From contig CP136065.1 of NCBI GenBank assembly GCA_032622095.1, positions 247,565,474 through 247,629,473 of the forward strand: 64,000 nt of DNA, written 5' to 3'. Position 1 is the first letter of the stretch, and every line of letters begins with the position of its first letter. Source of the stretch: Siphonodentalium dalli. Its lineage: Eukaryota; Mollusca; Scaphopoda; Gadilida; Siphonodentaliidae. The notes under the pieces were generated by a model, which made no database searches, had not been told where the DNA came from, and saw only the letters and a program-made list of their open reading frames with translations. This document shows positions 3,001 to 64,000 of the stretch, one piece after another. The position numbers and the translations under genes were made by a program.

Positions 3001-6000
3001 TGAATAAAAACAAACTCTTTATTTCTGGATTTTTTCAATATTATTCAATAAGCTGAGTTATGTTTGAAATAATAGTACTGGATTTGAAATTTGTGATATA
3101 CATCCGAAAACTGTTCTCTGTAACATGTAAGTGACTGACAGAGAAATATAAAGACACAATTACCACCTTAGCGAATGTCCAAAAAAAAAAATGGTTCAAG
3201 CATTTTTATTTTTTTTCCGACAAGGTTAAAGTTAAAAAAATCCGTAAAGCATACAAATAAAAAAGTTTGGCCTAAAATTAAACTTGGTATACTTTTCTTC
3301 TAATTGCTGTGGTGGGATTTCTCCTTCACTGAATGATGAGTTGACGCCTGCCACTGCAGCATTTTGCTTGTTCTGTTCTTGTTGCATGCTAGACATATCG
3401 CTGGGAATCTGTGGTCGTTGTTGTTGCAGAGTTAAGATTTCTGCGATTTCAGCTGGAATCGAGGAGGATCGCTGTTGCATGCTACTCAATGAATTCTGTA
3501 GATCCTTTAACATCTTCTTAGCTTCATTCAACTTCCTGTTAGGAATATGAAAACAATGTATTATTTCACCTAAATCTATTGTATAATTGTTTAATTGCTG
3601 ATCAGACCATAATCCTTGGGCCTGGGCTTTTGTATGTTAACATAGGCCAAATGAGTGGGTGTAATCCTAAGGTAATGCATTTTAATCTTAAACCAGACCT
3701 TCGACAGACCTTTTTTGTAGATTTTGTAGATTTTGACAAAAAATTATTTTGCAATTTTGGCCTTCCATCTACACAAGCCTGGAAATAATGTGTCTGACAT
3801 ATGCAGAATGAGGTCCCCAGAGGGTGAATTTGGTGATGCTATCACACACAGTGGCGTACATTGGGCTAGCATCACCAAATTCACCCTCTGGGGACCTCAT
3901 TCTGCTTGTATCTATTGTCAAATTAACATTGTTTTTAGGAACTTTTTCCATTCTGATCAGTTTCTATATCACCTAATTTGCAGAAGATAAAATGCACTAG
4001 AGGTGTGACTGTCCCAATGGGACTAAGGGACTAAGGACATCACCTACTTCAACTGGGGAACTTCAATCTGATCCTAGGTCTCCCTTAGCAGTTGAGGCCT
4101 AAGCAGAATGAGGTTCCCATAGGGTGAATTTGGTGATGCTAGCCCACTGTGGGATAGTCACTAAATTCACCCATTGTGGACCTCATTCTGCAAATGTCAG
4201 AGTAAATTCAGGCTTGGTGTGATAATATCAAGCCTTGAAATAGGGTGTCTGTCATTTGCAGAATGAGGTCTCCAGAGGGTGAATTTAGTGATGCTACCCC
4301 GCATAGGGGGACCTCATTCTGCTGAGGTGTAAGCTGAATGAGGTCCCCAGAGGGTGAATTTAGTGATGCTAGCCCACTATGCGGGGTAGCATCACTAAAT
4401 TCACCCTCTGGGGACCTCATTCTGCAAATGACAGACACCCTATTTCAAGGCTTGATTATCTCACCTGACTTTATCTTGAACGCCGGGATCTTCCATACCA
4501 AGTGAGGGACTAGACTCCTCCGATTGTCGTCAGTGTGATAATATAAACCCACCTGACTTTATCTTGAACGCCGGGATCTTCCATACCAAGCGAGGTCACT
4601 AGACTCCTCCGATTGTCGTCAGTGTGATAATATAAACTCACCTGACTTTATCTTGATCGCCGGGATCTTCCATACCAAGCGAGGGACTAGACTCCTCCGA
4701 TTGTCGTCAGTGTGATAATATAAACCCACCTGACTTTATCTTGAACGCTGGGATCTTCCATACCAAGCGAGGGACTAGACTCCTCCGATTGTCGTCAGTG
4801 TGATAATATAAACTCACCTGACTTTATCTTGATCGCTGGGATCTTCCATACCAAGCGAGGGACTAGACTCCTCCGATTGTCGTCAGTGTGATAATATAAA
4901 CCCACCTGACTTTATCTTGAACGCTGGGATCTTCTTCCATACCCATCGAGGGACTCGACTCTTCTGACTTTGTTTCCTCACTACTGAGAACTGAGGCATT
5001 TTCTTCCTCAGACTCCTGGACTGGTATATTCTGTGTCTTAGCAGTGGTTACCACGGGAACTGATGGCCTGGAACAATTAAATATTGTTAGGTAATCAGTA
5101 ATCACCAAAAATTTATACAAATCAGTCATCAACTCATAAATTGCATAATCAAGGTGACTAATGGGTGAACATCACCAATTTCAACTGGGGAACTTCAATC
5201 TGATCCAAGGTCTCCCAGAGCAGATGAGGCCAAAGCAGAATGAGGTTCCCAGGACCTCATTCAGCAAATCACACACTAAATCATGGCTTGTTTGGTGCGA
5301 CAAATATTTCACTTACCGTTGTAACTGTTACTATCTACGATGTGATTATAATAATTTGAACATTACCTTGGGTTAGGCATTAGAGTGTCTAGATTTTTCT
5401 CCGGCCATGGATCCCTGCCGCCGTTAACCTGAGCAGAGTCTATATTATCAGCTTGGTAGTATCTCACGAGAGACTTCAGTTCATCGAGCCTCGACTTCAC
5501 TTCATGTAATTTCTTCAGCTTCTCTCTCGCATCCAGAACATTTAGCACGTCCTCCGCGACTCCCTCGGTCTCATTAACGTTATCGAGCAAGTCAGTCGTA
5601 TCAATAACGGTGTCAACAGGTTCGCTGGAGACTGGATCTAAAAACATGACGGTTTGGTTTATAGGGGTTGATTTTCATTTAATTCGCTGAGCCATATCAC
5701 ATTGTTGTAAGTGTTGTAGATTGAAAAAAATTAATTTAGGGATGGGAGATGCAACTGGTGTACCGGTGAATCGAGATACAAAATGCTGAGATACATGTAT
5801 CGTATCGGTCATATAATATCGCGTATCTCGATATGCCCAAATGCAGTTTGAACTGTGACCATTTGCAGCTTCTAATGTGTACTCTTAGGTGCCTAATAAT
5901 AATAATTGGCAAATATTTTGGTTGATATATATAATATTTACTTCACTTCATCTCACTTCATCTCAGTGTGCATATGATTTCATGACTGGTTTTATTGATC

Positions 6001-9000
6001 ATTACAGTGACAACTGTCAAGTTAGAAAAAAATATGACGAAATTTCCCTACGAACCATTACCTACTATAACTGAATGCTCCATAGCAGAAGCAGAGAATG
6101 TTTTAATCTAGGCCTCAGCATATTCACCTGAGATATCTAGATATGTATTGCCAGATAATCAAAGAAATGATAACTCTAGAATGGAAAATGGGAACGTCAT
6201 TTGCCCTTCTTTTGAAAGCAGTCATGATGGTGAACATCCATACCAAAAGTCATTCGGATCTGATAAACAATGGCTAAGATATATGTTAGGACGAACAAAG
6301 TGAATCCAAAACAGATATCAAGTCTGCGTGGATCACAATCAAATCGAGAATTGAGGCAGGTATTTCCATATTTGAATTTTTTACCAACTTTTGATCCCTC
6401 GGTCAGCTAGTCCTACTGAGGAGGAACATAACATATTTTGATCAAACCATAGCAGTGCTTATACAAAGGCTGCAGCTAATGATTGGGATAATAGTGTGAT
6501 GTCAAAACACATACTGCAGGCATATGTCTGTATAAATAGTGTAAAGTTTAAACACATACTGTAGGCGTATGTCAGTGTAAATAGTGTTATATCTAAACAC
6601 ATACTGTAGATGTATGTAATAGCGTTAACGTTTAAACACATACTATATGCGTATGTCAGTGTAATAGTGTAACATTTAAATGTATACTGTAGGTGTATAT
6701 GTAACAGTATAAGGTTTAAATGGATCTTAGAGCAAGTAATTAATAGTTAAGTGCATATTAAACTGAAGTAGAAAATCCATGCTTACCATTGTTGAGCTGG
6801 CGATCGAATCGATCTGATCTCAGACCATCGAGTTCCGTGAGCAGCTCGTCCATGCGCTGTTTCTTCTCCTGTAGATCATACAGTTTGTTTTGGAGATGGT
6901 ATTTCTCCTGAGTAACAGACGAAGCTTCAGATTCAGTGTTGTTCTGTCGCTCCTCTAATTTCTGAAAGAAAAACATATACACATTTATTAAATGAGTCGC
7001 TCGCAAAACTACAAAGTAATAATAAATACAACTTATTCTCAAAATGGCTTGATAACATGTGTCTTTACTTATGCATGTCGCTGTGTTTTCAAATATGAAA
7101 TAAAATAACATTGCGTCGGCAATTTGTCAAAATGCCCAATGAACATAACAGATCGCATATACTTAGTAAAAAATTTCAATGTCTGGTACATTTTTGACAG
7201 GTACCAAAATTTTAGTTATTTCCAGGTAGTGTGCAATTGTTGAGCTAAGTAAGGATAGTGTGTGTTTTTTAAGACAATGTAAATTTTAATTTTTTTCGGT
7301 GGCCGTGTGTTATTGAGGTCGGACTTTAAATTTGCACTGTCTCAAAAACACACAATTCTAAAAATTGGCGCCTTGTTCGTTATATAGTCCCAGTCATGTT
7401 CAAAGGGCAACATTCGGCATGTCTCGAAGATGTATATATAACATGCTACTGTGCCATATATCTACTATATATAAGAAAGGATATGTTTACCTGCTGTAGC
7501 CCCATCTCGACCTGTAGATTGTTGAGCCGCTGACGAATCTCCACCAGATCCCGGGGAACATTATCTAACTCTCCGTCCGACTCGGGCTGGTTCCAATTAC
7601 TTTGAGCAGGTTCCGGCTGGTTCCAGTTGCTTTGAGGAGCTTCTGGCTGGTTCCAGTTACTTGGAGACTTCTTTCTCTCACCCTGCTGAGCCACAAACAA
7701 CTTCTTTTGTTCTGCTAAGAAATAAAACACAATAAGTGATGGAAATCATTGATAGATATGCCAAATCTGTTCATATTTAAAAATCGCCATTTTGTTTTTG
7801 ATTCTTTTTTGATTTTTTATTATTATTTTTTGTAAAAGTGAAATCTTCTGCAAATGTGTTTGATGAACTTATTAACAAAACATAAATGTTTTGGAATTCA
7901 AAGAGACTCTCTGTCTGTTTCTCCATTATATACATATAAAGAATTTTCAGTATACTTTTTTTAAGATGACTGAGAGAAGGAATTCAGTAATCAGCGAGTT
8001 GATCAACTAACATTTATGAGTGTGACTGACCTCGAATGACATTGCATGACTAATATTCAAAAAATACATACCTAATGTTCATACAACATCAAAATTTATA
8101 TCCCAAAAATTTTGCAACTTGAAATAAAAAAAAAACAGGAGCACGCCATCGGGGCGTGGCATAATACGCCCGTTTCTGGAGTAGAGTGGGGCATGTAGAC
8201 AGAACCCATATTTGAACTTGATCTGTATACCAAATTTGGTTCAGTTCACTCAATTCAATCTAAAGTTATCATCCAGAAACCGCAAATCAGGTAAATTCTA
8301 AGTCGAAAAGGGGACATAAATCAGTCAAAATCATGCGGACGAAACCCATATTCGAACTTGATCTGTATTTTGGGATGGTAAACTAACATACCAAATTTGG
8401 TTCAGTTCACTTGATTCAATCTAAATTTATCATCCGGAAACCGCAAATCAGGTAAAATCTAAGTTGAAAAAGGGGCATAACTCAATCAAAATCATGCAGA
8501 CGAAACCCATATTCGAACTTGATCTGTATTTTGGTGTGGTACACTAACATACCAAATTTGGTTCAGTTCACTTGATTCAATCTAAAGTTATCATCCGGAA
8601 ACCAAAATCGGACGGACGACGGACAACCCATTTACATAATACGACCGTTTTTTCAAACGGCCGTATAAAAAAGGGCAAAACAGCAACATAAACCATGCAT
8701 ACCAAAATAAAGAAAGTTTGTGGAACAATAGAATGCACATAGAGCTATACTTTTCACACTGAGAAGGATTACATACCTTCAATGGCGTTTCTTGATCTTT
8801 CATCAGCCAATCTGTTCTCAGCTTCCTTCTGGAGAGCTAACAGACTCGCCTGTTTACCCTGCAATGCTCTTAACTGTAATGTAAATGAAAGTTTACCCTG
8901 CAATGCTCTTAACTGTAATGTAAATGAAAGTTTACCCTGCAATGCTCTTAACTGTAATGTAAATGAAAGTTTACCCTGCAATGCTCTTAACTGTAATGTA

Positions 9001-12000
9001 AATGAAAGTTTACCCTGCAATGCTCTTAACTGTAATGTAAATGAAAGTTTACCCTGCTCTTAACTGTAATGTAAATGAAAGTTTCAATGCTCTTAACTGT
9101 AATGTAAATGAAAGTTTCAATGCTCTTAACTGTAATGTAAATGAAAGTTTCAATGTTCTTAACTGTAATGTAAATGAAAGTTTCAATGCTCTTAACTGTA
9201 ATGTAAATGAAAGTTTCAATGCTCTTAACTGTAATGTAAATGAAAGTTTCAATGCTCTTAACTGTAATGTAAATCAAAGTTTCAATGCTCTTAACTGTAA
9301 TGTAAATGCAAGTTTCAATGCTCTTAACTGTAATGTAAATGAAAGTTTCAATGCTCTTAACTGTAATGTAAATGAAAGTTTCAATGCTCTTAACTGTAAT
9401 GTAAATGAAAGTTTCAATGCTCTTAACTGTAATGTAAATCAAAGTTTCAATGCTCTTAACTGTAATGTAAATCAAAGTTTCAATGCTCTTAACTGTAATG
9501 TAAATGAAAGTTTCAATGCTCTTAACTGTAATGTAAATCAAAGTTTCAATGCTCTTAACTGTAATGTAAATCAAAGTTTCAATGCTCTTAACTGTAATGT
9601 AAATGCAAGTTTCAATGCTCTTAACTGTAATGTAAATGAAAGTTTCAATGCTCTTAACTGTAATGTAAATGAAAGTTTCAATGCTCTTAACTGTAATGTA
9701 AATGAAAGTTTCAATGCTCTTAACTGTAATGTAAATCAAAGTTTCAATGCTCTTAACTGTAATGTAAATCAAAGTTTCAATGCTCTTAACTGTAATGTAA
9801 ATCAAAGTTTCAATGCTCTTAACTGTAATGTAAATCAAAGTTTCAATGCTCTTAACTGTAATGTAAATCAAAGTTTCAATGCTCTTAACTGTAATGTAAA
9901 TCAAAGTTTCAATGCTCTTAACTGTAATGTAAATCAAAGTTTCAATGACACTATAGCACAACCTTGATCACTAGCAGAGATACACTTTTAGTAGCACAAG
10001 TTTGATAAATAACAAATATGATTAGAGGGTGTTCACAAGATGAAACAGTTCAGGCTTTTTCAGATCGAAAAAGAACCCTCTTTATTGAATATTAGTGACG
10101 TGATATGCATGAGTACATAGAAGTAAACATTTATTATTAAAAAATTTAATTATGATGCTCTAGATTGCTTAAGTCTGAAATTTGCAGGAGTACTGATTCC
10201 AGATCTACTAATATTGGAAATTTAGAAGAGTAGAAAACTTGAGATGGAACACAGGGATTATCAATATATGTACATTTACTGGTGATTCAAGATCGAAAGG
10301 AGGATATATTAAAACTATAATAGCAATTTTTACCATTAAAGACATTGAAATGAGACAACCCCGTCTTCCTACCTGTTCTTGCTGTCTGACTAGTTTCTTT
10401 AACAGTTCTTCTTGTTGTTTTAATGCTGCTAACTCTGAACCAGGGTCCATACCAGTGGCTCCCTCCAGCTGTCAATGAAAATAGTTTATTACTGGTATGG
10501 TATACTTTAATATGTCTTGCAACCCTTCGATGATGGGAGATGTGCTGGTGCATCATTAAAGATCCTGTGCCAGGGCATTCTCTTATACGCAAGTCTCCCA
10601 TAAGAAGCCTCGCATATATAAAAGAATGCACTGGCTTACAAGGTCAAGGTAAATATTGTTAGACCAATACGTGTATTCTCTTAAATATTCTCTTATGGAA
10701 GACTCCCATATATAAGAGTATGCACTGACACAGGGTTTTTGCTAAATTTCAGGAAGCTCCCGTCCTCAAACGGTTAACAGCATTCAGCAGAATAAGACAA
10801 ATAATGCATTTGGAAGTAAATTTGTACTCAGAAATAAAATGACCACCTTAGCAGACAACTGAATATCACAACAGTCAGACATGCAAAACAAATGTAAATA
10901 TATAATTAAGTGAGAGTATATAATGAACAACAGAAATGTTCATGCAACATATATAGGTATCATCCTAAATAGACACAACAAGAAACTCGACTTACATACC
11001 AAAAGATAAAAAATACCCAACAAAATATGCTCGAGGATTTTAACTTAAACTGACACGGCGCGTTCGAACCACAAAATCATGTATACATAACCTGGTAAGA
11101 GGCATCTCAAATTATACCTATGTGGAGATTTCAAGCAAATTTGTCCATATAGTTTCGATAAATTTAAGATTGTTTCATTCGTGCTGGTTCAACTATAGAA
11201 CATGGGAAAAAAATCTAGGGCTGTATTCGCTCTGAAACATTTGTGGTACTTCATAATTTTGATGATTAAAACTAAGAGAAAGCAGTGTGTGAAGTTTTTT
11301 TTTAATCGTTTCATGTTAAGATAACACAAAAAACCTTTTCCATTTCCGATTCCAGAATTTTGGCACCATTTTTGTACGTGGGCCCATACATTATGTTCGA
11401 ATTTGTATTTTTTCTGATATCAATTTCATCTTTCTGGGAAATATAATGCTTAGAAAGGTAGTTCAGGCATTTATCAACCTATTTTGATAGTGGGAAAATT
11501 CAAAAGTGAAAATTATTAGATGCAAATCTGTAGCGCAAACCACCATGTGGCTTTAACACCAAATGAATTTATTCATAAATAACTTTATCTTACATGCATT
11601 GTCAAGAAAATACCAAAAGGGAAAACAAAATTGCCTGAGAATTTTAATTTGAGACTAAATGGATTTGCTTTATAAGAAGTTTGATTTTACAAATCATGAA
11701 AATGTCTGGAAAAAATAACTTGGTAATTTTAACAACACACCAAATGGGTGAACTTCGATTATATGTCATGAGATACAAAAAAAAAACTTTGATAGTGCCT
11801 TAGGATTTGTAATCCATGTATCTTCGGAATTTGATGTGATCCTTCTGTGTTCAATAAACTATTTTCCCATTGCAGTAACTAAACAATGTGTATGAGCATT
11901 GAGCAATGAAATTACAGCCCTGTTAATTAGCAAGAATTTGCCTAGACTAAAAAATTGCCTAGGACAGAAGTTTTACCTTGGCGAAAAAGCCTAGGATCTA

Positions 12001-29406: not shown

Positions 29407-32400
29407 CGTATAAGGGAATAAAGTAACTACCCATCAGCGTGTATCCAATTATCAAAGTGTTAACTTCAGTGTTCTAATTATTATCTTTGAAGTAAAAATG
29501 GAGAAGAAATCAACATGCAGAACACATGCAACACATACATCATCGATATCACTGAAGGTCATGTGCTGTTTGAGATTTTCGATAGCTTGTGCCTCTTTCT
29601 GAGCCTTTGGCGTGCTCGGTGCTAATCGTGTTCGAGGGAAAGTTGAAGGGGTTCTCTTTTTATCTGCATGAGTCGGCGTTTGCTCATGACCCATAGATTG
29701 TTCTCGTTCACGTTCAGGGTTTCCTTTCTTCTTTCGTTTAGTCCCATCGAATGAAGCATTGGCCCTTCTTTGGGAAAAGTCCTATATAAATAAGAACATT
29801 GAATGAAAATTAGTAAAGAAGAGATCACATAACAGCACAACAAAGGACTTCCAATCATGGGTTTTGTCCATAAGAAAATTTACTAAACTTTACTACATTT
29901 TTCTCAATGATCCCAACTGACAACTCGGCATTGTGATGCACATTACATTATTACAAAAAATAATACAGTTTCATCACATCGTGAAGTTCTGAATTATTAC
30001 AGCCCTAACTCTAAACTCTGAATAAATTTTTTGGAATGAATGTTCTATTTTTAATTTTCTGGGGTGATCCGACAATATAATGAGATTATTATGAGGCACA
30101 GCAACACAAATTGCTGCTGATTTTTTTTTTAAATATGTGTTCAGCGATAACTGATCAGCATCTAAAAATTCAGGAATTTTGTTTACAAAATTAGATGCCC
30201 TGTCCAATTTAACCTCCCAAATTACTATTTCATCGGCTTCAGGGTAAAAAATATTTTATTTTAGTTCAAGAACCCACCCGTCCAAGCTTATAGCTACTAG
30301 ATTTAGATTTTTGAAATCTAATTATTTTGTACACCTCAAATTCCATATTAGTATATGGTGATGCATGGCTCGAACTGACATTCAGCATTTGTCATTACAA
30401 ATGTAAACAGAGATCTTCTTTCATGTGGTTTTATAACTTGTCTATCTTTACACATAAAACATTGTTACTGAAATGGGAATAAGTATACCTATATGTATGT
30501 ATCTGCCTGTCAACTATCACAAGAAACAGTAAATTTTGTTTCTGGCAATAATTTCGTCCTCTTATATTTCGAAAATCATTTTCAATCACTGCTAAACACG
30601 ACATCCCAACACTTATTACGGCATCCGCGCATATCTGTATATATTTCCGGTGAAATTTTTGCTGGGCTGTCAACAATTTGAGGTGTAGAAAATAAATAGA
30701 TTAAAAAAATTGAGATCTAAAAGATCTGAGTAATGAAGGGTGGGTTCCTAGACTAAAATTATATATTTTTCACTCCTGAAGCAGATGAAATAGTAATTTA
30801 GTGGTGTTATATCGGACAGGGTATCGATAATGTTTAGGCCTATAACTTTGACATAACTTTAATAGAAGGTTCCTATTTATTTCTATTCACAGCGCATTAT
30901 GTTTGTTTAAGCCAAGGAAGAGGTTAAGTATGTTTAACAGTGAGAATGGTCATCTGAAACTAGATATGGTAGCATTAATGCAATGAACAGAAGCCATGCA
31001 GAATGAGGTTCCCAGAGGGTGAATTTAGTGATTCTAGCCTGCTATGCGGGATAGCGTCACTAAATTCACCCTCTGGGAACCTCATTCTGTGAATGACACA
31101 CACTCTAAACTCAGGATTGCCCTTCACACAGCTGAAACAGTAAAGTAGGGCACAGAAAGGTGTGCATGCCTCACTATTTGGTTAAGTTTACACAATACTT
31201 GGTACAGTATAGCATTGGCAGGTTTAATGATGATCAACCGTTCCATCGCAGCATCAAAGGTTGTATACCATTTATATGAATCTATCAATCAAGGAGTTCA
31301 CTGCCCACTACATTGCATCTCAGACAAATCATTACAATCAAAGAGTTCACTGCCGACTACATTGCATCTCAGACAAATCATTACAATCAAAGAGTTCACT
31401 GCCGACTACATTGCATCTCAGACAAATCATTACAATCAAGGAGTTCACTGCCCACTACATTGCATCTCAGACAAATCATTACAATCAAGGAGTTCACTGC
31501 CCACTACATTGCATCTCAGACAAATCATTACAATCAAGGAGTTCACTGCCCACTACATTGCATCTCAGACAAATCATTACAATCAAGGAGTTCACTGCCC
31601 ACTACATTGCAACTCAGACAAATCATTACAATCAAGGAGTTCACTGCCCACTACATTGCATCTCAGACAAATCATTACAATCAAGGAGTTCACTGCCCAC
31701 TACATTGCATCTCAGACAAATCATTACAATCAAGGAGTTCACTGCCCACTACATTGCATCTCAGACAAATCATTACAATCAAGGAGTTCACTGCCCACTA
31801 CATTGCATCTCAGACAAATCATTACAATCAAGGAGTTCACTGCCCACTACATTGCATCTCAGACAAATCATTACAATCAAGGAGTTCACTGCCGACTACA
31901 TTGCATCTCAGACAAATCATTACAATCAAGGAGTTCACTGCCCACTACATTGCATCTCAGACAAATCATTACAATCAAGGAGTTCACTGCCCACTACATT
32001 GCATCTCAGACAAATCATTACAATCAAGGAGTTCACTGCCCACTACATTGCATCTCAGACAAATCATTACAATCAAGGAGTTCACTGCCCACTACATTGC
32101 ATCTCAGACAAATCATTACAATCAAGGAGTTCACTGCCCACTACATTGCATCTCAGACAAATCATTACAATCAAGGAGTTCACTGCCCACTACATTGCAT
32201 CTCAGACAAATCATTACAATCAAGGAGTTCACTGCCCACTACATTGCATCTCAGACAAATCATTACAATCAAAAGAGTTCAAATTCAAAGCGACGTCATC
32301 AAAACAATATTTTATATTGCGACGTCTGACAGCTTGATGCAAATAGGCCACACCATTTGATGTAATTTTTGTGTTCAATGCTGCATTTGGTATTTCTATT

Positions 32401-51600: not shown

Positions 51601-54600
51601 AATAGTTGCGTTGTCCCCAAGCACAATCAACGACGCACGTGTTCACATCTCCCGCCAAATTATATTTTATAACACGTTGGCTAAAACTCCGTTCTATACC
51701 TCATGGACTCTGCAGGGGGACCCATTTATTATGTACCACCGTACGATAGCACGGGATCTCGGAGAGGAGCAGTTTCATTCATGAAAATCCCGTGCATAAA
51801 AATGTCCCGACTAAGAAATTCGGCGTTCTTTGATCAAATTATGTAATCCTACGATATCACGGGATTTTCGAGCATGAGCATGCATATTCAGCAGTCCGAC
51901 ATTTTTTGATGTTACCGCGACATGCATTACGCTGTATCTAACGTCGCTATTTGACCCGCTTTTTCACCAGTATTCTATTTAACACCCGAACTCCCGTTGT
52001 AACCGGATTTGTTTACGACATTGCGACTGACATTTGGTATATGTATGAACCAAACAGATAATATGCGAGGGGAATGAGGCCGTCCTACGGACGCTGAGCC
52101 GTACTAACGGAAACCCTGTATACAGCCATCTCCTCTTCAATACACCGGCTGTACCTGGGTCAATGTTTGAACAATATATTACAGTGGGGATCGCCGGGAA
52201 GCACGTGACACTACCTACCTATATACTTACCCAAACGTATACTTATGTATATATACTGTGTACTGGCATATTACTACGGTTGTTGCTTGCTTCTAATTCT
52301 AAGTATTATATAACATATTCTGGTATAATTGTTACAATAATCGGAATCGGCCGATTGTGATCTCAAATAATCGGCGCATAGCTCTATTTGACAATCGGCT
52401 CATCACTAAAATCTTCCATCAAAACAGGAATATTCACCTATGTCATGGCGTCACAAACCATGGTTAGCAGCAGTGTGTTAGGGCTAAAGTTTCTAAAATG
52501 TTCAGGTGCCGATTCCGATTATTGTATTACTTATACCAGAATATGTTATATGTGTTATATAATACTTAGAATTAGAAGCAAGCAACAACAGTAGTAATAT
52601 GCCAGTACACAGTATATATACATAAGTATACATTTGGGTAAGTATATAGGTAGGTATGGGCGGACTTGTGATCAAATACAGGCACATGTCCTGCAGATGC
52701 TGTGGTACGGGGCCTCGGTGTATTTATTGTAATGTATTGTATCGACGATGCAATGCATTAACGTACCCATGTATTCTAGGCTATTCCATCGAATACAGGC
52801 ACATGTCCTGCAGAGGCTGTGGTACGGGGCCTCGGTGTATTTATTCAGGGATTAATCCGGGGCCTTTTTGGGGCCGAATTTCGGCCCCATTCCCAATGCC
52901 AGATACCCAGTAAAATTCCCAATATGGTGCGTGATAGATTCCCAAAACGGCGTGTGATATAAAGACATTGATCATCGGCATGGATGTTCGCGGTACGATG
53001 TTTCGCGGTACGGAATTTCAGAAGAATTGAGTGAGCGCTAAAGTACGCGGCACCTGATTGGTCGGAAATGTATATTACAGCCAATGCGAGTTCTTCTTTA
53101 ATAATGTAATAAGAATTGCAGAAGATGTCGCACAACAGCAAATATTATAGGAAAAAAATACAACCGGATAAGCGGCCGAGTTCAACAACAAATATAATAA
53201 CGTTCTTTAAAAAGAAGAAGGTCGACGATGCGGATTCAGCGCAGCCTCTTGACACTAATGACAGTGTTGTCAAAAGCAAAAATAGTGAAACCGCATCTCA
53301 CACTCAGTCCTCTGAATCGTCCGATTCCGATGATCATGATATTGATATTGTTTCCGAGGAGGAGTCAGAGTTTGTTTACCTACCGGTACCGGGGATTAAA
53401 CCAGACGAGAGACTATTCTCGTCAGGAAAATACGAAGAAAAATACAAGTGGCTGTACTTTAGTGTCAGAAAAGAAGGATACATGTGTAAAAATTGTGAAT
53501 TTTTTAGTGACAAATTTCAAGCCGCAGATAAAGGTGCATTCCATACAAAAGGAGTAAAGTTGGGAACCCATCCTACAAGAAAACTGACAAAACATGAACA
53601 GAGTAGAAGACACACTACGTCAATGTTGTCATCTCAGACCCTTACTCAAGTTGATACGAAAGATAAAAAAAGTGTTTTAAGCCAACTATGCGATAGCAGT
53701 ATTAAAATTGAAGCTAAAAACCGATCAGGTATGACAATATTACTGAAAACAGTTTATTTCATGATCAAGAAAAGCTGGGCACATACTACAAATTTTGAAA
53801 ACGTCATTGAATTTTGTGCAAAAACTGGAAACACGGAACTTCAAGAATTTTTGAATAGGATGTCTGACGAAAAAAGTAAACTTTCATATACATCTCCGTT
53901 TTCTGTTAAACAATATATACAATGCATGTCAGACTACATGGAGGAGGACATCCTATGTTCACTGAGGAGAAATAAATTTTTCACATTGTTATGCGACGAA
54001 AGTGCGGACGAATCTAATGTGACTCAACTGTGCATCATGGGACGATTTCTTAAGGATGGAGAAGTATGCGACCATTTTCTGGGAATTATCCCAATGCAAA
54101 AAACTGATGCAGCAACACTCATGGACTGTTTGCAAAAATTCTTAATGCAAAAGGGGATTAATATTGAGAACACTCGTTTTATAGCCCTTGATGGCACCAA
54201 TACTATGTCGGGAGAACGGACCGGACTACAGAAACGTTATAGACATTTCTCACCCTTTGCTCAGTATATAAATTGTCGAAATCATCGGTTGGCTCTTGCA
54301 TTCTCCCATGTGTTGAAAAAGTATAAAAAGCTTCAAGAAGCTGACAATTTGCTTGTAGGCCTGGCAAAGTTTTTCGGTTCAAGTCCCCAGAGAACAGCTG
54401 CATTCAATACTGCTCAGGACGTATATTTGTTGAAGGAGCTCAAACTTGTTTGGCCATCTACAACTAGGTGGCTGAGCCATGGAAAGTCCTGTGAAAGAAT
54501 CATAACACGGTTCCAATGCATTCTTGACACATTGGATGGTATTTATAATGACAAAAAAAGACCCAGAAATTTTAGGACTGAGATGCCAGTTAATAGATCC

Positions 54601-57600
54601 TGAAAATGTTGCTCTGATATGTATCTTAGCTGATATTCTATCTGAAACGAACAAGCTATCTACAATTCTTCAAGCTGACTGGGCAAACTTTACGCAGCTT
54701 CCGGCTTACGTGAAAGCAACCACAATATCACTGACTTCCCTGGCAAACGATCTAAGTCTCGGCACCAATTACAAAAACATTAACAAGCTTCTGCAAGATG
54801 TCAATCAATCACATTCTATCTTCGAGATTAGGACACGGACACATCAGATCTTTGACCTTAAAACATTTGAGACAGATGTCGTGAAACCAATGATAAAAGA
54901 ACTCATTTCTGAAATAGAAATGATGACGTCGTCGTCCTCTCTACTGTCATCTTTTGGAATTTTTGATCCAAGAAACCTGCCTAGAAATGAGAAGGAGTTG
55001 CCTTTATATGGTTCCACGGAAATTGTGACATTAGCTACATTTTATGGTAAACCATGCACAGACACATTCTTGGGCCATGTGACGGAAGTGTTACCAGAGT
55101 TTGAAACGGAAGACATTATTTCTAAGTTTGAATCCTTCAAACCTCACATGTTCTCTTTGAGGGATATTCATGAGCGAAATATATCCGAGAAAATCAAGTC
55201 TGTTGAAAATAAAATACTATTCACTGTATTGTCTAAATCTAAAAAGGAGGAAGAGCAAAATCTAGCGGATCTGAAAATCAACTTGCCATACAATATCAGG
55301 TTCTTGCTCAAAGCTTTTCACAAGGACGAATCTTTTAGATCTTTATTTCCGCAAATGTATTACATTGTTTATCTTGCAAATTTAATACCAACTGGAACTG
55401 TCAATGTTGAAAGAGCTTTCAGTTTGATGAGTTTGATTAAAACACCTTTGCGCAATAAAATGGGACAGTGCACATTGGACAGCTTGATGCGTGTATGCAG
55501 GGACTCCTCAAACATTGACGACATTGATTGGGAAAAAATTATTGATGCCTATAATTCTATGGGACCTACCCGGAAGATAGCTCTCTGATAAGTGGGTCAT
55601 TGATATCATAATTATATGTATCATTGTATGATTGTATGTAGTAATATGTGTGGTATTATAGACAATGAATTAAATATTTCAATTATCTCATCAAGCTCAT
55701 GTAAAAATATAATCCGTGCCTAGCCTGAGTTTCCTCTAGTCATCCATGTTATACTGTCTGGGTGAGGGCTATGGGACAAAGCCCACAGAAAAGGGGTATA
55801 TTAATTATATGTGGAATTTGGAAATATACATTGAATTTAATTCTATAAATATTATACTTTTAAAAATGTAATAAATCTTTGGCAGAAACTTACAAGTATA
55901 GTGGGCTTTCTGAAGCCTTTCATCTACTGTATGCACAACATGTGACAAGAATTTTTGCCATACATTGTCATTGCAAGAAGGCTTCTGAAGCTAGTACTAA
56001 TGGAAAAATCAGCTTCCCAAATTTGGGCGGCGAAATATACCCACCCCTTTTCTGAAGGCTTCCTCTGTCTCTCAACCAGACGGTATAGCATGCAGGGCCA
56101 GCAGAAACTCAGGCTAATCAGATATTTCTGTTTATCTTCTCCCACCCACATTTTTGTCATTGGGTAGGACCATAGTTATAATGATTAATGTACCGTAGAT
56201 GGAAGTACCGGTACTAACTTTGAGAAGAATTGTATACCCAGTAGTGAGTACATGTTGGTATAAAAGATGAAAAATTCATATACAAACAGTTATCTTGTAT
56301 CAATCAGACTTTAAAAACACAGTTCACTATAAGCAGTCTGCATATTTCAAGTGTTCATGTTCTTGTCCACTTGAAATTCAGACTGCTTAACTTAAGGCTT
56401 CTTATTATAGGTGTGTTGTTAAGTTATTAACAGTTGAGTTATAATTATATAATATCAATCAGACTTTAAAAACACAGTTCACTATAACTTAAGGCTTAAC
56501 TTAAGCCTTAAGTTATAGTGAACTGTGTTTTTAAAGTCTGATTGGTATTATATAATTATAACTCAACTATTAATAACTTAACAACACACCTATAATAAGG
56601 CTATATATACATGTATACAATATTTTTTAAATCGACTTGAGTTCAAGTTTTGTCAATCATGACATGAAATATTTGGAAGTTCAATGATCTGAAAGTGAAT
56701 CTGTGCTATACTGGAGCTCTCATACACCTTCTACATATAGGAGATCCACAGAATGGCCCAGATTCACTCCCTGGTCATTGAAATTTCACCAAAACAATTA
56801 TAGTGATGCTGGTTTCTGATGGTTAAAATTATTTCATGAATTTGAAAAGTTTCTGTTAAAAATAACACTGTATGTTCCCTATACAAGTGTGCTGATTTTG
56901 TGCTCAGATAAGCCTCAGAATCACTCTCAGGGCCTCCCTATTTCCAAAAAAATTCCGGGGGTGTTCACCCGTACCCCCCCAACGGGAAGGGGGCGACCCC
57001 CTCCCGTACCCTCCCCCACTCGGGCCTACGGCCCTCAGGAGATGCCTGCGGCATCTCATGCTATGTCCCAAAATATTGGAAAAGGCACCTTCCCAATTGC
57101 TGTGGATTAATCCCTGATTTATTGTAATGTATTGTATCGACGATGCAATGCATTAACTTACCAGTCCTTCGATTTTGAGGCGCGCCTTGGCGCGCGCGGA
57201 TCTAAAAACCAGCGAGTTATTAAATGCGCACGCCGAAAATTTTAAATGCGCGCGTCGGAATTTGCAGCCAGTGAATGAGATTTTAACAAACAGCACATCA
57301 ATGGTTAAACGCCGACAAGACTATTCACCGTGTATCTTTCTCAGCAGCGATGACGTTGATTACGAACATGATAACAAAGATCAAAGCGGCCGCCGGCGTC
57401 TTTCTCACTCAATGATTGGGGTGACACCTCGTCACAACTGCTGCACGTGCAAGTTCCCGCAAAAAAACTGTCAATTCTTTGGCGGTCTCGTTTGATGTTT
57501 CGGCATGCGGGATTCGCCGATTCATTTGAATACTATTGCCATAGATTAGGGTTTAAGTTTAAAGGGGTACTGTACGCCAAATGTTGTTGTTGGTTTCTAT

Positions 57601-60600: not shown

Positions 60601-63600
60601 GCAGCAACAAATCAATCCAGTCCTCTGACTACAGTACATGCTTTTCCCATCGTTATTACGCTCACTGCCTCTCCTCCCGATCTTATTGCGCTCTTACTGC
60701 ACTGTCACGAGGCGTTATGGACTGGTTCCCGCTCATAGTACGTCCACACAGTGCTGCCACTGCGACTATGCTCTCGTTATACATCCAAGCATGACAAATG
60801 GCTTTCTTCAGACGTTTGCAGCAGGTTTACAGTACGATCCCACTTTGAAATGCGAAACACAAATGGAGCATACAGCAGGCTCTATTTATACTGTCCGCAC
60901 CCATTTAGATAACGTTGTATTGAGAATGTACTAGCAACACAATGACTGTGACTTGGATGCACTAAGAACATTTACAGCATAGGGGAAGCGCATGAGACTT
61001 GACAAAGTCGGAACGCAATGGGTCGTACTAACAGCGCAATGAAAATGTGATAAGCGGGATAGAAACATTCCTCTTTTTTTAAGTTTGACAATTATGAAAA
61101 GTTTTCTGGCTCCTCCCAGCTCCTCCTGCTTGTTACTCATATTTTGATACTTTTTCAAAATTTCAACGCAATGCAAGCGCCGACCTGATCGCAGCGGAGT
61201 GTAGCGGAGTTTTAACTGAGACCATTAAAATTCTTTACCAATTATAATTGGTATTCTAAAATGCCCCCCAGCACTTTGGGGGGGGGGGGGGAGAGGATAA
61301 CTCGTTTTTCGGTCCTCAAGTGACCACTGTCTCAAATACAATAAGGCCTAAAAAAAGACCATTGTTTCCACAAATATATTGAAATAAATTAGTGTTGGAA
61401 TATGTCAGTCTGCCCATTCTGACAGATAAATAGGTTGCTGTGACCTTGTGTACCATTTGGAAAATATCCTCCATTTTCATGTTTTTCTATTCGTTTTGAT
61501 TTTGTCACCGTGAACATATTTGCAGGCATAAATCTAGAGGCCACATAAGGCGATGTCTCTGGAGGTCATCATTTTAGAGAGAGACTACTTGCGTTTAGTA
61601 TTTATGATCGCCTCCCTTTACAAAGTGGAAATATTCTCTCAGTTAAATGAAGGCATGCAACATGGAATGCGATACAAGAAAACAAATTGTGGATTTCGGT
61701 CGATAATTTTATTATGTGCAGAGGTCTGGACTAGGGGCGGGTGGGTTACTGGGAATCTCACTATTATATCTTGTTGTGCAGGATTATAGATTTTTACAGG
61801 AACATGCCAGATATACGACATCCCATTAACTTTGTTTTACTATCACGATATACAACATCCTGAGAAGTTGAGAACATTGTTTTACTTTCATGATTATACT
61901 TGTACAGGAACATGCCAGATATTAGTGTTGAAACGATTAGTGGTTTTGAGGAATCGACTAGTCGCCAGAGGGAATCGACTACTAGTCGACTAGTCGGACC
62001 CCTTCCGAAACTTACCGTTTTGTGCTCATTTACGTATATAATTTGCCGTTTGTTTTGAGTACCAGTAACTAACTTTGCATTTTCGAACGCAAAGCAAGAC
62101 GTGATTAAACACTATTTGCCGTGATTATTTGGCTTAATATCACTGAAGGTTAATAGGTAATTAATTTGTCCCAGGTATATGATGTTTTATGACAATCAAA
62201 TTACCATCCAGTTGATGTGTGTATCTAAACGGTGGTGACAACACCTGATCGATCGCGGAAACGTTACGGATTACGGAGTGGAAGCGCGTGCAACAATCCG
62301 AAACCGGTGCATTATTCTATATGTTTTGTGTAAAAATGTTCCTTTAAAATTGATATGGTATCATTGGTATGGTATACCGGGCCGTACCGGTTCTTACATA
62401 CAATCGAACATCGTTGTTTTCGAACTTGCCCAGTGTGCTTGTCACCGATTGACTTCACAAACGTGTACATGAAGAAATGCAAGATATTTTGAGAAACGAA
62501 CTTCATCTCCGACAGAGTCAAACAAAAGTTACAATATAAATGTTATAACAGCTGTAGTGCGTACAAGCCGTTTATGCTCGCAGATGTCATGTACATATAT
62601 CGGACATGGAATGTGGTAAAGTTCCCTGTAAATATATAGTCCGCATATATTAAAATATGGGCCATGCATTGCGTACATAATGTTGTTCCTTGTATTCATT
62701 GCAAGGTCACGATATGACATACATGTAGTTTAATCACGGACAGTCATTTTCCCGCCAAAACACGCGTGTTTTCACTGTTTGATTTGATCGCGTACATAAT
62801 TGTCTCTCGTGCATGGTACATTGTAAATATATATATACAATTTTACTCGCGAGTCCCCGAATACACAATCGATCGTGTCAGTTTCAGAAATAAAACTGCG
62901 CAGACCGGCGATGTTAATAGTACATTTCAATGCGATGTCGTAAGTTCTATATTTAGCCCGATTCCAGGAATTTGCGTCATCCAGATTACTTTTCTGGGAA
63001 CAGCTTTGTCACCGCCCAATTCCACGAAGGATTTAAGTTTGAGGTGCTAAAATACATTGTAAGTTTTCACAAACACAGCCCATAAACGATGTGGGATTTC
63101 CGAAGTGACTCGCCAGTTTAGTTCGAAATACGCGACGCTAATCGATGCATAGCATGGCCGACCGCGGGTTGGCTTTATATTTATATCTATAATACAATAT
63201 ATCTAGAACGTGCGATCGTATACGCTCACCCATGCGTCAGTTGATGCATGTGGTGGTTGTAAAAAATATCACACAATTTTACAAATAAACTTTAAAGGTA
63301 TACTGACATAGTGCTTCAATAAACTATAATATATTGGATTTGTTATTAAACTTAAAACTTAATAATGTCACCTCGCAACTAACTTGATTGAAGTTGAGTC
63401 CTGCACACCTGCAAGCACGTTGACCAGATATCACTCAGATCAATTCCGTCACGCCGAAATAGACACGGTTGCGATAGGCGCTGATTCTTTGAAGTTGATT
63501 ATCAAAGCCGGTCGTCTCAACTTCAAAGAATAAGCCGGCGCGGCGCCGACAAATACATTGAGTTGAGGTCATTGGGTTTCGCGCTCGTGCATGACCACCA

Positions 63601-64000
63601 AATACTGAAAGCAGTTATCGCATCAAAGGGACAACAAAGAAGGCTTTAGCAAGCTAATTGTGATTGTGTATTTCGATAGCCTGATTGTTTAAATTGTCCA
63701 GTAATTCGGCAACGGCACTGCTTTCGCGATGGCATAATGGTGGTGGGTGTGTTCCGACTAGTCGACTAGCCGATTTCGGAATCGACTAATTTAATAATCG
63801 CGTCTATTTCGATTAGTCGATTAATCGTTTCAACACTACCAGATATATACGACATTGTGAGAACATTGTTTTACTATTTTGATTATAAGACATCCTGAGA
63901 ACATTGTTTTACTATCATTATTATACTTTTTTGACAGGCTGCATTCAGAGAACCACGACTGTTGGTGGTAACCGATCCCCGCACGGACCATCAGCCCGTT
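42562..64000 (+). CDS. RPSA: RPSA, 40S ribosomal protein SA (uS2, laminin-receptor family), partial
   Basis: Small-subunit ribosomal protein uS2; in the cytoplasm it sits on the 40S body/head border near the mRNA exit and is needed for subunit maturation. Three coding exons (42562-42694, 50060-50265, 63938-64000) join in phase to 134 residues of a family usually close to 300. Diagnostic blocks, near-identical to vertebrate [55 protein letters not shown] and [16 protein letters not shown]. The C-terminal part lies past the right edge. The two introns are unusually long for a ribosomal protein gene and consist mostly of nested transposons. Confidence 0.97.
45232..47075. repeat. long-period minisatellite GGGGCGCCTGCGGCGCATAA, split by an insertion
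   Basis: Two alternating half-units: CCTCTATACTCTAATGATCG + GGCGCCTGCGGCGCATAAGA + TACTTATACCTATTATTTAT, and GCAGTAGCCTCTATAGG + GGCGCCTGCGGCGCATAAGA + TACTATGGGTGGCGGGATGG. The combined period is about 145-150 bp, roughly 5 copies, at 45232-45612 and 46708-47075, separated by the element at 45621-46707. Confidence 0.88.
45621..46707. mobile_element. innermost hAT-type element (1087 bp), TSD GGTGGGTG
   Basis: Ends TAGGGCTGGACGATAT and CGCCCAGCACTA; perfect 8-bp duplication GGTGGGTG at 45613-45620 and 46708-46715, taken from the host minisatellite. Subterminal ACCGCGGTT motifs and GACGATATT repeats. Non-coding. Confidence 0.88.
47180..47700. repeat. three spaced copies of CCAAGATGGCCGCC...TCACGTGAC
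   Basis: At 47228, 47449 and 47626: (T)CAAGATGG(C/A)CG(T/C)CAA(G/T)(A/G)TCACGTG(A/T). The copies are 177-221 bp apart in otherwise diverged sequence that also shares (TA)n and CACTTTG-like parts, so this looks like an old tandem array of about 200 bp with one conserved core. A (TA)n run lies at 47317-47345. Confidence 0.6.
48160..48332. repeat. 20-bp minisatellite TCATGGGGTGTTAGGTCCAT
   Basis: About 8.5 copies with CATTC/CACTC and TTAGG/TAAGG variants. It lies inside the 43689-48773 element. Confidence 0.92.
48425..48575. repeat. short tandem repeat ACTCATCTCTCCCCCG(T/C)GCCCC
   Basis: Four diverged copies, two of them with a leading AACTAATAAATT. No other feature. Confidence 0.7.
50060..50265 (+). 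CDS. RPSA: RPSA coding exon 2
   Basis: Acceptor TTTTTCTATTTCAG, donor ATCCAG|GTAATC. 206 nt: the rest of a split glycine codon, then [20 protein letters not shown] and on to GTFTNQIQ. Ends in phase 0, matching exon 3. Confidence 0.97.
50706..52118. mobile_element. hAT-type MITE/non-autonomous element (1413 bp), TSD TATACAGC
   Basis: Ends AGGGTTTCCG and CGGAAACCCTG; 8-bp duplication TATACAGC at 50698-50705 and 52119-52126. The inverted arm at 59689-59702 carries the uninterrupted site (GATGGCTGTATATCAAG), proving the borders. A hairpin GACGGGACGACCATGGTTCG and inverse lies near 50760. No transposase. Confidence 0.92.
52214..52655. mobile_element. foldback element ACCTACCTATATACTTACCC
   Basis: Left arm 52214-52350 (ACCTACCTATATACTTACCC ... 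TCTGGTATAA ... AATCGGAATCGGC) is inverted at 52506-52655. It sits where the outer element's arms stop pairing, so it is a further insertion or the arm tips of another nested unit. Confidence 0.65.
52679..52845. repeat. direct repeat pair CAGGCACATGTCCTGCAG
   Basis: A 50-bp segment (ACAGGCACATGTCCTGCAG...GGCCTCGGTGTATTTATT) occurs at 52678-52729 and 52795-52845. The intervening piece (TTGTAATGTATTGTATCGAC...GTATTCTAGG) reappears split at 57118-57160 and 58829-58842, showing this was one continuous stretch before two insertions. Confidence 0.85.
53116..54603 (+). CDS. hAT-superfamily transposase, N-terminal and catalytic part (495 aa before frameshift)
   Basis: DNA transposase, nuclear, cut-and-paste. 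Residues 1-45 are basic; about 45-85 are serine/aspartate-rich. A zinc-finger-like module follows (CKNCEFF at about residue 121, then HEQSRRH near 159), as in ZNF862/ZMYM-like hAT proteins. The RNase-H-fold motifs are present: LLCDESAD (first Asp, about 293), [12 protein letters not shown] (second Asp, about 359), [10 protein letters not shown] (C-x2-H, about 386) and TRWLSHG (about 453). The frame ends soon after an A7 run at 54553-54559; the other frame carries the true continuation. Confidence 0.93.
   Translation: MQKMSHNSKYYRKKIQPDKRPSSTTNIITFFKKKKVDDADSAQPLDTNDSVVKSKNSETASHTQSSESSDSDDHDIDIVSEEESEFVYLPVPGIKPDERLFSSGKYEEKYKWLYFSVRKEGYMCKNCEFFSDKFQAADKGAFHTKGVKLGTHPTRKLTKHEQSRRHTTSMLSSQTLTQVDTKDKKSVLSQLCDSSIKIEAKNRSGMTILLKTVYFMIKKSWAHTTNFENVIEFCAKTGNTELQEFLNRMSDEKSKLSYTSPFSVKQYIQCMSDYMEEDILCSLRRNKFFTLLCDESADESNVTQLCIMGRFLKDGEVCDHFLGIIPMQKTDAATLMDCLQKFLMQKGINIENTRFIALDGTNTMSGERTGLQKRYRHFSPFAQYINCRNHRLALAFSHVLKKYKKLQEADNLLVGLAKFFGSSPQRTAAFNTAQDVYLLKELKLVWPSTTRWLSHGKSCERIITRFQCILDTLDGIYNDKKRPRNFRTEMPVNRS
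54524..55588 (+). CDS. hAT transposase, C-terminal part in shifted frame (hATC dimerisation domain)
   Basis: From the A7 run the second frame continues without a stop to TGA at 55588 (about 345 useful residues). It ends with the hAT C-terminal dimerisation signature [36 protein letters not shown] and the charged segment before hATC are also typical. One surplus A in A7 would account for the shift, so this is either a recent inactivation, an assembly error at a homopolymer, or recoding. No intron borders at the site. Confidence 0.92.
   Translation: MTHWMVFIMTKKDPEILGLRCQLIDPENVALICILADILSETNKLSTILQADWANFTQLPAYVKATTISLTSLANDLSLGTNYKNINKLLQDVNQSHSIFEIRTRTHQIFDLKTFETDVVKPMIKELISEIEMMTSSSSLLSSFGIFDPRNLPRNEKELPLYGSTEIVTLATFYGKPCTDTFLGHVTEVLPEFETEDIISKFESFKPHMFSLRDIHERNISEKIKSVENKILFTVLSKSKKEEEQNLADLKINLPYNIRFLLKAFHKDESFRSLFPQMYYIVYLANLIPTGTVNVERAFSLMSLIKTPLRNKMGQCTLDSLMRVCRDSSNIDDIDWEKIIDAYNSMGPTRKIAL
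56333..56599. repeat. long perfect-type palindrome in hAT 3' region
   Basis: 56402-56599 is a near-perfect inverted repeat (TTATTATAGGTGTGTTGTTA ... CACTATAACTTAAGGCT / inverse) of about 2 x 98 bp. Just before it is a smaller hairpin at 56333-56391 (AAGCAGTCTG...TTTCAAGTG / inverse) preceded by a second copy of ATCAATCAGACTTTAAAAAC. No coding frame. Confidence 0.9.
57161..58824. mobile_element. TIR element CAGTCCTTCGA (1664 bp), TSD ACTTAC
   Basis: Ends CAGTCCTTCGATTTTG and CAAATTCGAAGGACTG; ACTTAC on both sides, while the uninserted copy at 52765-52775 reads ACGTAC. Subterminal GCGCGCG-rich blocks at both ends. Two short frames (within 57300-57495 and 58261-58470) have acidic, protein-like composition but no recognised domain; they could be remnants of an element-encoded protein interrupted by the next insertion. 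Confidence 0.8.
57565..58147. mobile_element. TTAA MITE nested in the CAGTCC element
   Basis: Ends AGGGGTACTGTACGCCA and TGGCGTACAGTACCCCT with TTAA at each side. Non-coding, AT-rich inside. A different family from the TTAA MITEs at 16628 and 44921. Confidence 0.85.
58843..59604. other. interior of the outer element, nothing recognised
   Basis: Sequence between the nested insertions and the right inverted arm; no domain, tandem repeat or hairpin of note. Confidence 0.4.
60182..61922. other. RPSA intron 2, between insertion nests
   Basis: No exon. A G-run at 61278-61291. A solitary end GGCCTAAAAAAAGACCATTG (61347) of the GGCC...GTTTCC family lies without a partner. 61795-61915 starts a short tandem repeat (core AACAT/TTGTTTTACT). 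Confidence 0.5.
61795..63930. repeat. short tandem repeat split by hAT-type insertion
   Basis: Units with TTGTTTTACTAT-CA-GATTATA and GACATCCTGAGAA occur at 61800-61915 and continue at 63847-63930; the 1.9-kb element in between interrupts them. Confidence 0.6.
61923..63838. mobile_element. hAT-type non-autonomous element (1916 bp), TSD CCAGATAT
   Basis: Ends TAGTGTTGAAACGATTAG and TAATCGTTTCAACACTA; perfect 8-bp duplication CCAGATAT at 61915-61922 and 63839-63846. Subterminal GACTAGTCG/CGACTAGTC motifs at both ends. No transposase domain in the short frames inside. Confidence 0.92.
63938..64000 (+). CDS. RPSA: RPSA coding exon 3 (partial, cut by window edge)
   Basis: Acceptor TACTTTTTTGACAG followed by [20 protein letters not shown] and V, 21 codons in phase 0. 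Vertebrate RPSA has [20 protein letters not shown]. Confidence 0.97.

Follow-up and report, generated by a model that had tools for sequence, protein, structure and literature searches.

The present study analyzes a 64,000-nucleotide stretch of the Siphonodentalium dalli genome (the window, C5:247565474-247629473), whose minus strand carries exons assigned to PCM1 and, at the borders of two of these exons, tandem arrays that repeat a splice site in every unit. One array sets 32 acceptors before a single 97-nt exon, and the other repeats the donor at the end of a different exon. A preliminary description of the window had drawn attention to the acceptors; the donor array is absent from it. The features are as follows, with ^ marking a splice border here and below.

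8777 to 8873, minus strand: PCM1 exon (exon 9 in the numbering of the preliminary description), LRALQGKQASLLALQKEAENRLADERSRNAIE, 97 nt, donor GTATGT
8874 to 9029, minus strand: four units of 39 bp that each carry a complete acceptor and share the reading frame of the exon
9030 to 9063, minus strand: 34-bp unit (TTAAGAGCAGGGTAAAC...), frame-shifting, giving LRAG-stop
9064 to 9921, minus strand: 26 units of 33 bp, of which the A units have TGA in frame with their own acceptor
9922 to 9949, minus strand: outermost acceptor and intron edge (GTCATTGAAACTTTGATTTACATTACAG)
10373 to 10468, minus strand: upstream exon, LEGATGMDPGSELAALKQQEELLKKLVRQQEQ, which ends in phase 0, borders read by eye
4906 to 5067, minus strand: PCM1 exon that seeds the donor array with its 3' end and donor
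4462 to 4961, minus strand: donor-side minisatellite, 88-bp unit made of exon tail, donor (mostly GTGAGT or GTGGGT) and intron head

The minus strand of the window holds 32 exact ACATTACAG^T acceptors, all in register and in a single array, with the last intronic G at 9922, 9889 ... 8913, 8874 and the first exonic base at 9921 ... 8873. Their spacing is 33 bp in 26 intervals, 34 bp in one (9063-9030) and 39 bp in four, after which the real exon begins, and Tandem Repeats Finder (TRF) gives 8862-9947 as an array of period 33 with 32.2 copies at 97%. The 33-bp units fall into four types (A, 11; B, 12; C, 2; D, 1) in the order AAAAAABBBCAABAABBBCABBBDBB. The AG is present in 32 of the 32 acceptors, with none missing, and both this array and the donor array consist of head-to-tail units within the range of about 10-100 bp and of the high identity that define a minisatellite. 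The roughly 32 tandem acceptors that had been described upstream of the PCM1 exon are thus confirmed, with the amendment that one unit is 34 bp. The 24-mer TTTACATTACAGTTAAGAGCATTG occurs 35 times in the 2.23-Gb assembly (gap stretches being read as N), 30 times in the window array and 5 times in a second PCM1 copy, while its reversed control occurs 0 times. This count and its confinement to the two PCM1 copies rule out chance as the source of the array, and a dispersed repeat or transposon as the source of the unit is unsupported, the 24-mer being found in those two copies only.

The assignment of the window exons to PCM1 rests on their linkage to matches of Pfam PCM1_C (PF15717) and on an apparent likeness to human PCM1. 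Six PCM1_C matches were obtained from six candidates (E 3.5e-28 to 4.3e-14), three exon stretches per copy, and place two PCM1 loci in the assembly, one downstream of the window on the same strand as the window exons (C5:247531444-247549646) and the other at C5:247245652-247262065. The same-strand exons in the window encode LEGATG...RQQEQ (10468-10373), LRALQGKQASLLALQ...NAIE (8873-8777) and others down to 3.3 kb. Three window peptides, that of exon 8873-8777 included, gave no Pfam match above cut-off, and the first of the three gave no match to the PDB below E 0.19. At 7585-7666 a 30-bp tandem repeat lies inside a coding PCM1 exon (SNWNQPEAPQ / SNWNQPEPAQ / SNWNQPESDG), and this exon is identical in the second copy.

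The 32 exon forms were translated from phase 0. Acceptor 32, the one nearest the exon, gives the normal 97-nt exon, and acceptors 28-31 are open and add 52, 39, 26 and 13 residues, respectively, as LRALQGKLSFTLQ blocks; the claim that the four next-nearest acceptors keep the frame and insert 13-residue blocks is borne out. All of the outer 27 acceptors (1-27) run into a stop, either the TGA in TTTGATTT of the A units or else the TAA of the 34-bp unit (LRAG-stop). The frame change near 9050 and the distal TGA units that had been described earlier proved correct, the indel being the 34-bp unit at 9063-9030 with its TAA, a unit sufficient by itself to close the frame for all outer acceptors.

Among the array acceptors the last 20 intronic bases vary only at the TTTC/TTTG/TTGC position and are the same in acceptors 10, 31 and 32, and a real-exon acceptor stronger than its decoys was rejected on this ground. 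Pyrimidines at -20 to -5 number 10-11 of 16 in the five array acceptors scored and 6-12 in seven other PCM1 acceptors, one of which (that of the 10468 exon) was placed one base off. Acceptor strength is ordinary, since a crude tract rule is satisfied by 405 of the 3329 AGs on the minus strand of the window. A distinctive RNA fold of the array was also rejected, the 355-nt stretch 8777-9131 folding worse than its shuffles (z +2.34), 99 of 100 of which fold at least equally well. Inspection for branch points was by eye, and no site stood out; by eye also, the 39-bp units carry a weak donor-like CAGG^GTAAAC, with the next AG just 23 nt off.

The second PCM1 copy lies 282 kb from that of the window. 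Its stretch C5:247286500-247296499 (L003) is colinear with the window, the three largest blocks having 97.2-98.5% identity and smaller ones down to 93%, with many insertions. Its acceptor array has seven acceptors in 39-bp units only, with no 33-bp unit. A transposon about 1.37 kb long separates the outermost acceptor (...TTGAAACTTTCATTTACATTACAG^ATAAGAG) from the five 39-bp units that precede the exon. That outermost acceptor does not give an open frame, whereas the six on the exon side of the transposon do; one 39-bp unit has a Q-to-P change. The transposon sits at TTTA with a TA duplication, as read by eye, and is multicopy, with at least 133 matches, its home site included, when 40 of 380 candidates were scored. 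The 33-bp field either grew in the window copy or vanished from the other after the two separated, and expansion is the simpler reading.

Coding sequence differs little between the copies. Across 8 exons there are 9 nucleotide differences in 1385 nt, a length that includes two intronic bases of one exon (10468-10373 was entered as 10467-10371, one and two bases off), with 4 synonymous and 5 nonsynonymous codons and no gaps, while the three largest blocks, these exons included, differ by about 1.5-3%. The three PCM1_C exon stretches have the same translation in both copies across the matched part. Because coding sequence differs less (9 in 1385) than the blocks as a whole, normal protein presumably still comes from both copies. 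The idea that the array is tolerated because the window copy is dead finds no support, the 8 exons and three PCM1_C stretches, which are the parts of the gene covered by the open-frame check, being open in both copies.

The donor array follows exon 5067-4906, which terminates ...GATAAAGTCAG^GTGGGT, and its six donors in the window are at 4905, 4817, 4729, 4641, 4552 and 4464. In the second copy the corresponding array (C5:247284756-247287288) has 30 donors, 29 of them GTCAG^GT and one GTCAT^GT, with a few units of 76-89 bp, and GT is present in every donor counted, six in the window and 30 in the second copy. Reading through the first donor leads to a stop (TAG) in the first unit. The second-copy exon differs from the window exon in two codons, ATG/CTG and AGC/GGC, and because both changes match variants that occur within the donor array, exchange between the array and the coding exon is suggested.

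Growth of the acceptor array from the exon border, which had also been claimed, is supported by the junctions. Joining AAAC/AAAC (intron -21 of the second copy and exon +19) yields exactly the 39-bp unit, and joining CATTG/CATTG (the window intron edge and the exon) yields exactly the 33-bp type A unit; the seed border, in single copy, would resemble TTGAAACTTTCATTTACATTACAG^TTAAGAGCATTGCAGGGTAAACAGG. From these exact junctions we infer that slippage or end-joining at the short repeats flanking the border (AAAC/AAAC) made a 39-bp duplication, which would have held the tract, the AG and the first 18 exonic bases, and that a second event or exchange (CATTG/CATTG) may have produced the 33-bp unit. 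Array lengths then diverged, as comparison of the two copies shows, with 32 acceptors and 6 donors in the window and 7 and 30 in the second copy.

Other exon borders in this genome were surveyed at 55 loci around exon matches to the myosin head (30 of 85 matches) and kinesin (25 of 123 matches), taking match ends as borders and scoring any tandem repeat that overlapped a match or lay 40 bp or less away. Four rows resulted. Three of the 55 loci have a two-copy duplication of a donor border and represent two independent events: L027 and L029, in two related myosin genes, share a 67-bp duplication of exon tail and GAAAAG^GTAGG donor, and L060, in a kinesin, has a perfect 31-bp duplication with AAGG^GTAATA. 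The fourth, L030, is a 10-bp repeat within the exon. Enrichment of arrays at splice borders was not shown among the 55 loci, 3 of 110 borders being covered compared with about 7-8 expected at random. Duplication events are amply supplied, because 9.9% of the window (at a TRF score of 50) and 6.9% of the surveyed 55 loci (at a score of 40) consist of tandem arrays. The two arrays in PCM1 would seem to be duplications of a common kind that have grown far.

These patterns are probably best read as a pair of splice-border minisatellites in PCM1 that arose by ordinary tandem duplication and were not selected as a splicing device. Normal protein would need the exon-proximal acceptor, and the likeliest reason that PCM1 could still be made is exon definition, in which the spliceosome would pair sites across the 97-nt exon and favor its proximal acceptor. 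Minor isoforms longer by 13-52 residues would probably come from the next four acceptors, and transcripts spliced to any of the outer 27 would meet early stops and may be removed by nonsense-mediated decay; array length, if it acts at all, would be a passive drag on productive splicing, and the arrays would otherwise be close to neutral. In a designed library, with contexts chosen from human K562 data, the first of two tandem donors was used predominantly when both were consensus (PMC6783452). The donor array would thus be tolerated, and nearly harmless, because the exon-proximal donor comes first on the transcript and is favored. Since equal donors default to the first and equal acceptors show no order preference, the acceptor array, with 31 similar rivals upstream of the right site, should be the costlier of the two. 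That the survey turned up donor-side duplications only is in keeping with this asymmetry, although it amounts to just two events.

Several points weigh against this interpretation. In the same library study, equal tandem acceptors 2-59 nt apart were chosen without order preference, and for unequal strengths the stronger site dominated (PMC6783452); because equal acceptors lack such a preference, a win for the exon-proximal acceptor is not guaranteed. The exon forms of acceptors 28-31 are 136-253 nt, a normal exon size, and size is therefore no bar to their use. The window copy has GTGGGT as its first donor and GTGAGT as its second, and the first is not clearly the better of the two. The ratio of 5 nonsynonymous to 4 synonymous codons indicates, taken alone, only mild constraint. 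The shared 4-bp word in the border flanks was reached in 444 of 500 shuffles, which is chance level; microhomology was for this reason rejected as proof of mechanism, and it fits slippage or duplication without proving any. The array lengths rest on one assembly. The survey was of limited size and contained numerous paralogs, many among the 30 myosin loci, which are thus not independent. Use of the outer donor would lead to a stop in L029 and L060 and, in L027, to a frame shift (67 nt) and not a stop.

An alternative explanation could be that 32 near-equal acceptors spread the choice of site and productive PCM1 mRNA falls as the array lengthens, making the array a length-dependent brake, which we regard as unlikely. 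In a fuller form, which is likewise unlikely, copy number would act as a rheostat, each unit lowering productive splicing and adding isoforms with 13-residue blocks while the donor array stays nearly silent, and the asymmetry of donors and acceptors would filter which borders can multiply. The near-identity of the last 20 intronic bases, the lack of order preference in the designed library and the stops behind 27 of the 32 sites would all be expected of a brake, but the coding conservation between the copies suggests no strong loss and exon definition could hide the outer sites. The preliminary description had offered either a reservoir for variable-length PCM1 or a decoy field, and both fit the sequence, with the reservoir the weaker. 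As a reservoir, the 39-bp units would serve as alternative exon starts that place a variable LRALQGKLSFTLQ block in PCM1 under selection, and these units are indeed all open and in frame, both the four in the window and the five that follow the transposon in the second copy. However, few mutations have occurred in any unit, and a young homogenised array would be open anyway, giving openness little power; of the 31 extra acceptors in the window copy only 4 preserve the frame, the 33-bp field is closed, and one 39-bp unit of the second copy has changed Q to P. Thirteen residues are not a multiple of the coiled-coil heptad, and the blocks do not fit it. We consider selection for such a reservoir very unlikely.

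It is also quite improbable that the length of the array, or the separate second locus, is an effect of assembly in which two haplotypes were placed side by side. The second copy may be a paralog or a retained haplotype, and both fit. For kinesin and myosin, some matches that cover the same stretch of a profile are spaced about 300 kb apart, or lie farther off in inverted orientation (as judged by position), and a stretch about 30 kb beyond the window (C5:247660000) has an inverted partner of 92-94% identity at 248010390-248013869, near 248.01 Mb, as unpurged haplotigs would. A probe at C5:247450000 has a 94% partner of 438 bp at 247152529, two of the seven paralog-versus-haplotig probes having been searched, and one at window 61600-64000 fell in a multicopy element and is uninformative on this question. 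Unpurged haplotigs and local duplication would explain the distant and inverted partners equally well. The internal order of variants, the transposon in one copy and the different flanks are not what collapse or stutter would produce, and arrays in two alleles of one locus would be no less real, and polymorphic. Across C5:247150000-248014000, PCM1 and neighboring stretches have partners about 280-300 kb off, with one inverted farther on.

Related arrangements are known. Turri, Cuin and Porter reportedly described in 1995 a minisatellite of IFI6 (6-16) that provides multiple splice donor sites, with a unit said to be about 12 bp in 26 copies. Two downstream repeat units of IFI6 are reported to act as donors and give variant mRNAs (PMC4526556). 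The likeness lies in an exon-edge minisatellite with many copies of a splice site, and the donor array at 4462-4961 is of the same kind, judging by its sequence; the difference is that IFI6 is human and donor-side only, whereas PCM1 has 88-bp donor units and 32 acceptors in 33-39-bp units. In potato RdRp, a new intron with support from RNA-seq reads came from a tandem duplication that crossed an intron-exon border (PMC4974935). That duplication likewise copied tract, putative branch site, AG and exon start, but it was a single one and made the new intron together with a cryptic GTAAG donor from the upstream exon (PMC4974935), whereas here the exonic part is 12-18 nt and is repeated up to 31 times. 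NAGNAG and similar tandem acceptors are pairs of neighboring 3' splice sites, 2-12 nt apart, that compete with each other (PMC2878309, PMC3095350), unlike the 32 full acceptor units 33-39 nt apart of PCM1. Targeted searches of the literature found no acceptor-side minisatellite among the matches listed. The earlier statement that no described case was known needs qualification, since the donor-side minisatellite of IFI6 and the single duplication across an acceptor border in potato RdRp are both in print.

Studies of how splicing selects among equal sites usually rely on designed two-site reporters. PCM1 offers 32 near-identical acceptors in one copy and seven in a sister copy, with 6 or 30 near-identical donors at a second exon, all beside conserved coding sequence, and would be a natural test of how look-alike sites are chosen, by exon definition or by order-free competition. 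It would also show how far an exon border can multiply before the gene fails, and the myosin and kinesin cases suggest that early steps could be surveyed genome-wide. If array length does act as a rheostat, the asymmetry of donors and acceptors would filter which borders become minisatellites in a genome that duplicates them.

Other features of the window include a 49-bp array at 31286-32281 (20 copies, 98%, TRF), open in all three plus-strand frames and with an acceptor-like CATTGCATCTCAG in its unit, and a 1.9-kb multicopy element at 61922-63840 with full-length identity of 92-98% to many places. Long plus-strand open frames at 53113-55588 presumably encode a protein like that of a hAT or zinc-finger-862-type transposon.

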